Shown one piece after another: positions 59,696 through 62,487 of a stretch of 64,000 nt of DNA. The stretch lies in contig JACPUC010000027.1 in NCBI GenBank assembly GCA_016192455.1, positions 1 through 64,000 of the forward strand. Reading direction: 5' to 3'. The translations under genes and the position numbers were made by a program. The stretch comes from Candidatus Tectimicrobiota bacterium (GTDB lineage: Bacteria > JACPUC01). Each line of letters begins with the position of its first letter. Position 1 is the first letter of the stretch. Below the pieces are notes generated by a model. The model did no database searches. It had not been told where the DNA came from and saw only the letters and a list, made by a program, of their open reading frames with translations.

Positions 59696-60184
59696 GTGAA
59701 CCGCGAAGAGCGGCGGGGTTCACCTCTCCGGGAAGTACGTGATTCTCCAGCGTGGCGCTGGCGTTCAGTGGTCGCCGGACTGGCTCTACGGGGAGCAGCC
59801 GGACCCCGCGGTGCAGCACGACAACAGGCTGCCCTCATCCGGTCGCCGGGGTTCGACGAGTTGGCGGAGGGGCTGCAAGCCATTCTCTTAGGTGAGGGGA
59901 TGGTGCAGGGGGTCGGCGGACTGACCGCGGAGGCGGCGCAGCACCTCATGCGCCTCGACGTGGTGAGTCGCGAGTGACCGCCGACCGCGGAGTTCTACCG
60001 GCAGGAGTTGGCGGCCTTCCACGATGAGCAGAGGAAGAGACGGGCGGAGAGGGTGGAGGTGCGGCGGAACGAGGACGAGAAGCTCATCGAGCTGGTGCAA
60101 CGGTTGCGGGGCCACCCGAAGCTGCGGGCCGTCGTCTCCGAGATGGTCAAGAAGATGATCGAGGTGTACGAGAAGGAGTCGTGA
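59696..60184 (+). pseudogene. Reading frame interrupted by an in-frame TGA (unknown protein)
   Basis: From GTG at 59696 one frame reads to TGA at 59975-59977 (ending HLMRLDVVSRE). The same frame continues without a break after the stop as PPTAEFYRQELAAFHDEQRKRRAERVEV...KLIELVQRLRGHPKLRAVVSEMVKKMIEVYEKES to a second TGA at 60182. The second part is charged and helical and clearly coding-like. I do not recognise the family. It is most simply a gene broken by a nonsense mutation; recoding is not supported by any known element here. Confidence 0.4.
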
Positions 60185-60421
60185 GGAGTAGGTGGCGCAA
60201 TGTAACTGAAGCTCCGTCCGCGGCGGGCGCGTGGAGCATTATTATCGGTATTTCAATGGGTTGGCAAAGTAATGCGGTGTAACGCCCGCCGGCCGGGTGG
60301 GAAAGGCCGGTGCTTGGCATTGACGTTGCGTATACATTGTCACAGATTTGTGGTAGAGGCTACCCCTGGCTGAAAACCCAGAAGAGTATAGAGCCTCGGG
60401 CTGGACGCGCAGGTAAACTAA

Positions 60422-60808
60422 ATGGCTGACCAACCAGAACAACAACCTTCTCGGCCTCCGCAGCCGTTGCCGCCACTGCAACCGCCAATCCGGCAGCCGC
60501 CACTTTTCTATAGCAACGTGGCACGCGTTATGCATACTGAATATGATGTGTTCATAGATTTTGCGACACGCTTACCGGATACACCAGACTTTGCAGCCAT
60601 AAGTGCCAGGATTGTGATGAGTCCTCAGCATACAAAGGCGCTCCTGAAGGCTCTTTTTGAGCATCTAAAGAAGTACGAAGAATCCTACGGAAAGATTCCA
60701 TTGCCTGGAGATTTTGTAATGGAAAAGTCTATTAAGGAGTTCTTTAACAACGTTGAGCGCAGTAAACCGGGTGAAGGAGAGACCAATGCAGGGGTACAAG
60801 GTCCGTGA
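60422..60808 (+). CDS. DUF3467 domain protein
   Basis: 128 aa. After a Pro/Gln-rich N-terminus of about 27 residues comes PLFYSNVARVMHTEYDVFIDFATRLPD and then ARIVMSPQHTKALLKALFEHLKKYEESYGKI, the DUF3467 pattern. The gene is AT-richer than its surroundings and overlaps the antitoxin gene by 23 bases. The function of DUF3467 is not established. The ATG at 60422 has only a weak upstream ribosome site. The preceding 237 bases (60185-60421) are low in GC and must hold the promoter, which I cannot define. Confidence 0.75.
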   Translation: MADQPEQQPSRPPQPLPPLQPPIRQPPLFYSNVARVMHTEYDVFIDFATRLPDTPDFAAISARIVMSPQHTKALLKALFEHLKKYEESYGKIPLPGDFVMEKSIKEFFNNVERSKPGEGETNAGVQGP

Positions 60809-61013
60809 AGTATCAGCGGATGAAGTAATTTCTAAGGACCTGTTTGAAGTGTGGCCACGCATGGGTGCCTATGTTCATATCACGCACGCGCGAGATGTTA
60901 CCTTTTACGTACAGGAGAATGAGGACGAAGACGACCTGCGCGCTCACCGTCTAGCGATGCAGGAAGAGGGGGGGCGTCCTTGGGGCGATGTGAAACGAGA
61001 GCTGGAACTTTAG
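60786..61013 (+). CDS. Putative type II antitoxin
   Basis: 75 aa. MQGYKVREVSADEVISKDLFEVWPRMGAYVHITHARDVTFYVQ, then an acidic, helical C-terminus (ENEDEDDLRAHRLAMQEEGGRPWGDVKRELEL) suited to wrapping a RelE-type toxin. The ATG at 60786 has AAGGAG eight bases upstream, inside the end of the DUF3467 gene. The toxin follows after six bases. I do not recognise a named antitoxin family; the call rests on size, charge and position. Confidence 0.6.
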   Translation: MQGYKVREVSADEVISKDLFEVWPRMGAYVHITHARDVTFYVQENEDEDDLRAHRLAMQEEGGRPWGDVKRELEL

Positions 61014-61019
61014 ACCCCC

Positions 61020-61277
61020 TTGCCATATCAGGTGATTCTCAAGCCCGGCGCTCAACGCGACCTTAAGCGCCTCGACAATCCAGTGCGCAAAAGGGTTGCG
61101 GTTGCTTTAGATCGGCTCCTGGAAAATCCTCGACACCATGGAGTCACACCCCTGGTTGAGGGGGAAAATGTGTATCGCGTCAGGGTTGGAGAATGGCGTA
61201 TCATTTTTGAAATTGCTGATAACGAATCACTCGTAACAGTCTCTCGGATCCGACACCGCCGCGACGCCTATCGTTAG
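61020..61277 (+). CDS. RelE/ParE family toxin (mRNA interferase-like)
   Basis: 85 aa. PYQVILKPGAQRDLKRLDNPVRKRVAVALDRLLENP, VYRVRVGEWRIIFEIADNESLVTVSRIRHRRDAYR is the full RelE fold, with the basic residues of the final strand expected in ribosome-dependent RNases of the RelE group. The start is TTG at 61020, immediately after the antitoxin. It completes a three-gene low-GC module with DUF3467 and the antitoxin, likely acquired horizontally. Confidence 0.87.
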   Translation: MPYQVILKPGAQRDLKRLDNPVRKRVAVALDRLLENPRHHGVTPLVEGENVYRVRVGEWRIIFEIADNESLVTVSRIRHRRDAYR

Positions 61278-61450
61278 CAAACGAGGATCAGTGAACACTA
61301 TAAATCCAGAAAAATTCTAATTCTTATCGTTGCCTTGAAACCAGTTTGCTGGGCCATTCCTCCCCCAACATGATGCAATGCTGATCAAAAAGTAGACCAT
61401 ATAATACAATGGACGCTATAGCAATAACGTCCCCTGGGAAAACACTTGTG

Positions 61451-61593
61451 TTAGTTGAATTCTTCCAGCGTCTCCATCGCCGCCTCCGCCCGCTTCGCAT
61501 CGCCCTCGGGCATCAGCACGCCGTCGAACGGCGCCGGCGCGTCCTTCTTCAGCCAGGCCCAGCCCTTGTCGCCTACGGGGGTTGGACGTAAAC
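61451..61593 (-). pseudogene. Coding remnant of unknown protein
   Basis: On the minus strand this reads VGDKGWAWLKKDAPAPFDGVLMPEGDAKRAEAAMETLEEFN and stops at TAA (61451-61453). The composition is strongly protein-like, but there is no start codon. A likely frameshift lies near 61580, because the adjacent frame reads TEFVYVQPP before a TAG. I do not recognise the family. Confidence 0.35.
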
Positions 61594-61615
61594 GAACTCG
61601 GTTCTCTCGAAGGCG

Positions 61616-61726
61616 TTAGGAAACGCGCACCCCGAGGCCGCGACGAGCCGCGAAGTGGGCCATCAGCGCGTCCGATGCCATTTTCAGCACCGGGCCGGCC
61701 AGTAGAATCAACAGGGTTGACCACAT
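61616..61726 (-). CDS. Possible 36-aa membrane peptide
   Basis: ATG at 61726 preceded by AAGGAG with seven bases spacing. The product MWSTLLILLAGPVLKMASDA... has one hydrophobic segment and ends GLGVRVS. It lies between two coding remnants on the same strand, so it could be part of a decayed phage-like or mobile cassette. Upstream on this strand (61727-61901) another frame reads MERLTAMGYADEVVQWGASKLGDSIDSKIAL, also coding-like. Weakly supported. Confidence 0.3.
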   Translation of the reverse strand: MWSTLLILLAGPVLKMASDALMAHFAARRGLGVRVS

Positions 61727-62487
61727 GGCGAGCTCCTTGCGCCGCCTTGGGCTGCTCCTGGGTCGGCTGCCCGACAGGCGGATCAAGCTCGCCTCGGTCG
61801 CGCGTCCGCAGGGCGATCTTGCTGTCGATGGAGTCGCCGAGTTTGGAGGCGCCCCATTGCACCACCTCGTCGGCGTACCCCATGGCGGTCAGGCGCTCCA
61901 TAAGAAGTCGCCCCTCACCCTCCCCGCCGGCCCCCCTTGCTAATAACGCGCGATGATTCCCCCGCCTCTCCTGACGCTCTGTCTGCGGGGAGCGTACACC
62001 CTCAGCCACACCTGCTTGGCGCCGGCGTTCGCCGCCCGCGCATCCCTGACAAGCCAGCGCCGAGTGCGCCGCACCTTGACTTAGCACAATGGATAACGTA
62101 TATGCTCTGCGGGAGAGCCACCCGACCTCTCGCTCCGCTCGCCGACCGTGTGTGACGCCAGCGCTTGCCGCCAACACTCGCCCCCCTCAGGTTCCTCCCA
62201 GCGACAAGCTTCGGTGGCGCTGAAGGTTTTGCGGGGGAGACTCTCCTTTTCGACTCATCATGCATCTTCCGAGAAGGGAAAAGTAAAAATCAGTGGGCAT
62301 TCCCTAAGCAATAGGTGTAAGAAGTTCGCTGACGACCTTGAGGCGTTGCGGGCGGCCCGATATGGGGGCGGTGGGGGCCGCGCTCTCCCACGCGCCGGCA
62401 GGTCGGACGCAGACAGGCGAGGGGGCGAGGTTCCCTCGCACAACCTGGGGGACAGCAGAGGGGACGGTAGAGCGCAAGGAGAGCGTC

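Follow-up and report, generated by a model that had tools for sequence, protein, structure and literature searches.

A probable RelE-type toxin-antitoxin pair preceded by an overlapping DUF3467 gene, a possible third component, in a Candidatus Tectimicrobiota genome

The window analysed here, the first 64,000 nucleotides of contig JACPUC010000027.1 of a Candidatus Tectimicrobiota bacterium (GCA_016192455.1), carries near its end a module of three small forward-strand genes whose frames are all open and full-length. The first gene (60422-60808, +; 128 aa) matches the Pfam family DUF3467 (PF11950), the second (60786-61013, +; ATG start; 75 aa) is an antitoxin candidate with a Phd/RelB-like toxin-binding C-terminus, and the third (61020-61277, +; TTG start; 85 aa) matches PF05016 and belongs to the RelE/ParE toxin superfamily. 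As a sequence-only reading of this DNA had described, the first two genes overlap by 23 bases and a gap of six bases precedes the toxin gene, a spacing from which we infer a single transcript; promoter and terminator patterns at the module did not exceed those of shuffled sequence. The same reading had called the segment AT-rich, and it is indeed the AT-richest of the window: stretches of 860 bp average 66.8% GC (sd 3.4), and the minimum of 48.5% starts at 60601. Only the antitoxin has a strong Shine-Dalgarno sequence (GAAGGAG, 60773-60779, +), which lies within the DUF3467 gene and pairs with the anti-Shine-Dalgarno at -8.8 kcal/mol, compared with -3.9 kcal/mol for DUF3467 and -3.6 kcal/mol for the toxin.

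The toxin scored 52.3 bits against ParE_toxin in Pfam (PF05016, cut-off 23) and matched the RelE-like phrog_1213 of PHROGs with E 1.2e-20, while its score against NCBIfam RelE_StbE (18.1 bits) fell under the cut-off of 27.9. Its PDB relatives are 2khe, 9g12 (RelE), 3g5o and 3bpq, and its blocks YRVRVGEWR and RIRHRRDAYR line up with those of RelE toxins of solved structure. These blocks follow the patterns YRxRxGxxR and RIxHRxxxYR, which we take to be the conserved basic blocks of RelE-type RNases. Because they are kept, the toxin would more likely be a ribosome-dependent mRNA cutter than a gyrase inhibitor. The toxin has relatives in 118 of 386 genomes, a set in which the window's genome is counted and is the sole representative of its phylum, and several different kinds of antitoxin adjoin them.

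The antitoxin candidate matched no family of Pfam, NCBIfam or PADLOC; its best PHROGs match reached just E 0.16. Against a profile that we built from six Phd-type antitoxins adjoining toxin relatives, it scored 13.9 bits, a value attained by none of 2000 shuffled sequences (best 9.0); with five other antitoxins as a control profile the score was 3.7 bits, which 26 of 2000 shuffles equalled or exceeded. HHalign placed the similarity in residues 37-75, the C-terminal half with the toxin-binding tail, leaving the N-terminal half outside the match and without a DNA-binding family in Pfam or NCBIfam. No relatives of the antitoxin were found in the 385 other genomes, in plasmids or in phages. We expect that it should neutralise the toxin through its Phd/RelB-type tail. 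The toxin family matches and this tail bear out the earlier claim of a toxin-antitoxin pair, and we regard a RelE-type pair at this locus as highly probable. The arrangement resembles RelBE and Phd-RelE type II modules in its gene order, antitoxin before RelE/ParE toxin, in its short spacing and in the antitoxin tail; it differs from them in an antitoxin without a recognised family and in the DUF3467 gene that precedes and overlaps the antitoxin gene.

The DUF3467 protein matches PF11950 over residues 29-92 (66.2 bits, E 2.7e-18; cut-off 25). Its N-terminus is rich in Pro and Gln, its C-terminus extends past the domain, and it is the only copy of the family in this genome. DUF3467 itself was the sole Pfam match above cut-off, and no recognised DNA-binding domain was seen there. 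The predicted model comprises three strands (33-38, 43-51 and 54-66) and a helix (68-89), with a core pLDDT of about 80; a second predicted model, of a fuller DUF3467 relative, had a mean pLDDT of 78.8. Pur-alpha and MoSub1 stood in the top Foldseek rows at non-significant values (E 0.12-0.3), and the best match of the first model was likewise non-significant (E 0.084). VIA-align paired DUF3467 with PC4 (Z 4.5, rmsd 3.9, 57 aligned) and with Borrelia Pur-alpha (Z 4.4), scores that unrelated proteins tie in both cases; fold matches missing from the VIA-align lists carry no weight as evidence. A PC4/Pur-like nucleic-acid-binding fold is thus a weak lead rather than a result.

Upstream of the module lies a leader of 33 bp (60320-60352, +) that includes the palindrome CACA-GATT-TGTG. 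The 4.46-Mb assembly contains exactly three copies of this leader with up to three mismatches, compared with none for a reversed control pattern and none expected in the window by chance. The other copies, at C23:301602-301634 (L230) and C1:198395-198427 (L229), also precede low-GC gene sets, and all three sets are unrelated. The leader may serve the three sets as a common promoter/operator, or it may be a site of recombination. A structured RNA was considered and rejected, since 187 of 200 shuffled sequences fold equally well, and the pattern was absent from viral contigs. Around the module, the upstream flank (60026-60360, +) is 67% identical over 335 bp to C23:301594-301927 (E 7.9e-17). Downstream, a piece at 61388-61438 (+) is 76% identical over 51 bp to C23 at about 300 kb (E 5.5e-4), and a longer flank (61474-61853, +) has relatives both there (61479-61590, 81%) and at about 257 kb of C23 (61474-61600, 78%; 61648-61853, 76%).

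What these recurrent sequences enclose differs from place to place. At a paralogous site at about 300 kb of C23 (L227, C23:297500-304500), flanks of the window's type surround a low-GC gene for a 332-aa SDH-type ClpP-like protease (62 bits). On C1 (L228, C1:197000-200000), the leader (91% over 47 bp) is followed by 46 bp of relic antitoxin coding sequence (83%, 48 bits; controls reach 28) and, after it, by a gene for a retropepsin-like aspartyl protease. The other RelE gene that this genome has (L226, C23:258072-258308; PF05016, 51 bits) adjoins the same downstream flank and is paired, without DUF3467, with an antitoxin that looks by eye like CopG/ParD. Because flanks and leader recur around other low-GC cargo, the module looks like exchangeable cargo behind the leader, which agrees with the cargo-like setting that the sequence-only reading had proposed. 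That reading had also described the flanks as decayed DNA, which is partly right: the flanking ORFs tested match no family, but the flanks recur at other places in the genome and are not simply decayed. The three genes were not found together anywhere else. We rejected a viral home for the three proteins: viral scans with each of them were empty, as were those with further DUF3467 queries, the only query with a viral match being the DUF3467 of an Anoxybacillus plasmid described below (one viral contig).

To place the DUF3467 gene in its family, we turned to its relatives. PF11950 is present in 22 of 59 and in 135 of 386 genomes from many phyla, both counts including the window's genome. Among 150 further loci, drawn mostly across phyla, home-made models found no relatives of ParE/RelE (iterated toxin model) and no PBECR or DUF2283 genes, and a HEPN gene is known at one (L180); these searches did not span every toxin family and may have missed other toxin types. 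Of the 151 cross-phylum loci, the window's included, just the window and L180 are toxin-linked. The neighbours that recur are various housekeeping genes; in Bacteroidales (Bacteroides), DUF3467 adjoins rpsL-rpsG-fusA. A record labelled Bacteriophage sp. (MT836236.1, L184) carries DUF3467, rpsL, rpsG and fusA and resembles a piece of bacterial chromosome. DUF3467 as a family is not a toxin-antitoxin gene and mostly stands alone with varied neighbours; a role as a general partner of RelE was rejected on the evidence of the 150 other loci. The literature searched mentioned DUF3467 only in a proteomics table, and no description of it in toxin-antitoxin systems was found there.

A minority of DUF3467 genes nevertheless lead toxin operons. 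At L180 (G383:C59), a DUF3467 gene (25.2 bits) is followed after one base by a 154-aa gene without known family, which overlaps by seven bases a HEPN gene (PF05168, 32.6 bits; cut-off 22). An Anoxybacillus plasmid (NZ_CP015439.1, L185) carries DUF3467, then a 128-aa PBECR2-like gene (22.7 bits, under the cut-off of 27.1) and a DUF2283 gene (40.9 bits). The viral contig IMGVR_UViG_2829825107_000003 (L187) holds the same module with a DUF3467 95% identical to that of the plasmid, and both modules are flanked by a LexA-like repressor on one side and a recombinase on the other. We then searched 378 genomes from the phylum of Gracilibacter (Bacillota by NCBI), drawn blind, with the DUF3467 model alone and obtained 15 matches in 13 genomes; six of these matches start a DUF3467-PBECR2-like-DUF2283 operon (G502, G475, G510, G671, G429 and G747). 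Interrupted toxin frames were seen in two of these six, G475 and G510 (loci L194 and L195). GC content was below that of the flanks at all seven other modules measured, at L180 only slightly.

A seventh Bacillota match of this draw (G551, L202) shows the window's own order, a DUF3467-like gene followed by a 166-aa antitoxin-like gene and a RelE-like toxin gene, at sub-threshold Pfam scores. Its first gene reaches 22.8 bits against PF11950, under the Pfam cut-off, and its score on the profile of alignment A1 is equalled or exceeded by seven of 2000 shuffles; what ties it to DUF3467 is HHalign through L200-type relatives (E 5.8e-6). The RelE-like gene scores 18.4 bits against PF05016, below cut-off, and E 4.4e-9 against phrog_1213. 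With regard to the L200 type, three genomes carry near-identical loci (L200, L201 and L204) in which a divergent DUF3467-like gene is overlapped by a 179-aa gene. The sequence-only reading had suggested a tripartite system and named rarity of DUF3467 beside toxin genes as evidence against it. That rarity is real across the family and does not extend to the divergent Bacillota subset (six of 15, plus the sub-threshold seventh), so that a tripartite system is possible and gains support from the PBECR2-like/DUF2283 and RelE-like operons, not from any general adjacency of DUF3467 and RelE.

A search of the same 378 genomes with a PBECR alignment matched 12 genomes. Six of these also have DUF3467, three carry a PBECR-DUF2283 pair without it (G610, G634 and G431), and the remaining matches are cut by a contig end (G761), broken (G587) or a fragment (G624). 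The co-occurrence in six genomes (of 13 and 12, in 378) corresponds to a Fisher p of 3.7e-7, a biased value, since DUF3467-linked genes were used to build the PBECR model. Since pairs without DUF3467 exist, DUF3467 is an optional addition to the pair. The family assignment of the second genes is itself weak: PBECR2 matches fell below the Pfam cut-off in three of five tested and were absent in the other two, although histidines and a threonine are invariant in the six Bacillota genes aligned. The DUF2283 assignment at L199 derives from a Pfam score of 22.1 bits, under the cut-off of 23.

Two small ORFs on the same strand followed DUF3467 at 19 of 168 loci; ten of these were dropped by eye as GC-rich shadow ORFs, and L130 was dropped because its ORFs encode two membrane proteins. 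This filter did not catch L194, L195, L199 and L202, which came from models or from reading. L182, a DUF3467-like gene (22.8 bits, cut-off 25) followed by 94-aa and 106-aa genes, resembled by eye an antitoxin/RelE operon; no library match supports this and it was not counted.

The toxin-linked DUF3467s are mostly divergent members of the family. Ten linked loci (the window, L180 and eight PBECR-linked) score below 158 others on the home-made DUF3467 model (Mann-Whitney p 3e-6; median of the others 103 bits), and the linked share is eight of 23 loci under 60 bits compared with two of 145 above (the window and L191). The window's own 82.6 bits are inflated because the model was seeded with it. 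In a poorly resolved tree with few columns and long branches, whose linked group included L196 (neighbours lost to a contig end), the PBECR-linked rows call for two changes, and the nearest rows to the window's DUF3467 are copies from Caldisericota and Coprothermobacterota without a toxin link. Membership of the window's protein in a PBECR-linked clade is not supported by this tree. Because a single change does not account for the PBECR-linked rows and the window's row lies apart, more than one origin is the simplest account, and the link between DUF3467 and toxins seems to have arisen repeatedly.

Our main reading, to which we assign a probability of roughly 0.5, is a type II toxin-antitoxin operon with DUF3467 as an accessory, perhaps nucleic-acid-binding, component. 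The DUF3467 gene would be read first, overlapping the antitoxin gene, and the antitoxin would neutralise the RelE/ParE-superfamily toxin. The likeliest role of DUF3467 would then be that of a small protein that binds nucleic acid, either controlling the operon or holding the complex at RNA or ribosomes. We take it as a third component because several operons with putative RNA-cutting toxins (PBECR2-like/DUF2283, RelE-like and HEPN) start with a divergent DUF3467, and nucleic-acid binding is a guess prompted by the weak fold lead together with partner toxins that are all putative RNases. Whether DUF3467 is a functional part of this particular module stands at about even odds.

The alternative that survives best, and which we consider quite possible, is an ordinary two-gene RelE-type pair, with an unrelated DUF3467 of its own function acquired in the same AT-rich segment. 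The mostly stand-alone occurrence of the family and the lack of ParE/RelE relatives at its 150 other loci speak for this, and the antitoxin's own strong Shine-Dalgarno sequence would permit its production without DUF3467; the 23-base overlap, the position of the genome's sole DUF3467 in this module and the divergent DUF3467s that lead other toxin operons speak against it. It is improbable in our view that the specific task of DUF3467 is to chaperone the antitoxin or help it fold. Toxin-antitoxin-chaperone (TAC) modules are a known tripartite precedent (PMC5105189, PMC6377645), and the module shares with them three genes and an RNase-type toxin. However, TAC antitoxins bear a C-terminal chaperone-addiction extension (PMC6377645), whereas the 75-aa antitoxin stops at its toxin-binding tail, and none of the three proteins matches the SecB-like chaperone of such modules in Pfam or NCBIfam. 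A decaying remnant that has lost its function is the least probable alternative: flanking ORFs without recognised families, the antitoxin relic on C1 behind the same leader and the toxin's TTG start and weak Shine-Dalgarno sequence would fit it, but all three frames are intact and the toxin's conserved residues are kept.

An accessory role for DUF3467 in a toxin-antitoxin operon would have parallels. PaaR2-PaaA2-ParE2 of E. coli O157 combines an accessory gene, a short antitoxin and a ParE/RelE toxin in the order seen here, with PaaR2 a CI-like transcriptional repressor (PMC8630535); the first protein of the window's module matches DUF3467 only and has no CI-like repressor domain in Pfam. PtuXYZ is a tripartite RelE-type operon with a DUF262 protein (PtuX) and an ATPase (PtuY) (PMC11980606); it likewise has three genes including a BECR-fold toxin, but both the DUF262 protein and the ATPase are absent from the window's module. 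Both of these known tripartite systems with RelE/ParE-type toxins thus use accessory proteins other than DUF3467.

A broader proposal, tentative and on balance doubtful, is that a divergent, mobile and PC4/Pur-like branch of DUF3467 forms the shared first component of undescribed tripartite RNase-toxin operons (RelE, PBECR2/DUF2283 and HEPN), where it would steer toxin activity or expression via RNA or single-stranded DNA. A DUF3467 branch tied to toxin operons would offer a first testable role for the family, possibly as a common accessory part across different toxin folds that may have been overlooked in some toxin-antitoxin systems. The DUF3467-PBECR2-like-DUF2283 module of Bacillota would be a specific candidate in which toxicity and phage defence could be assayed. 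PBECR nucleases of phage polyvalent proteins belong to the BECR clade and have characteristic histidines and a threonine (PMC5512222). The Bacillota second genes keep invariant residues of that kind, but each stands solo, with DUF3467 before it and DUF2283 after it, a layout of which the available part of that source says nothing. The PBECR-DUF2283 pairs without DUF3467 (L213, L214 and L215) are probably an undescribed toxin-antitoxin pair in their own right.
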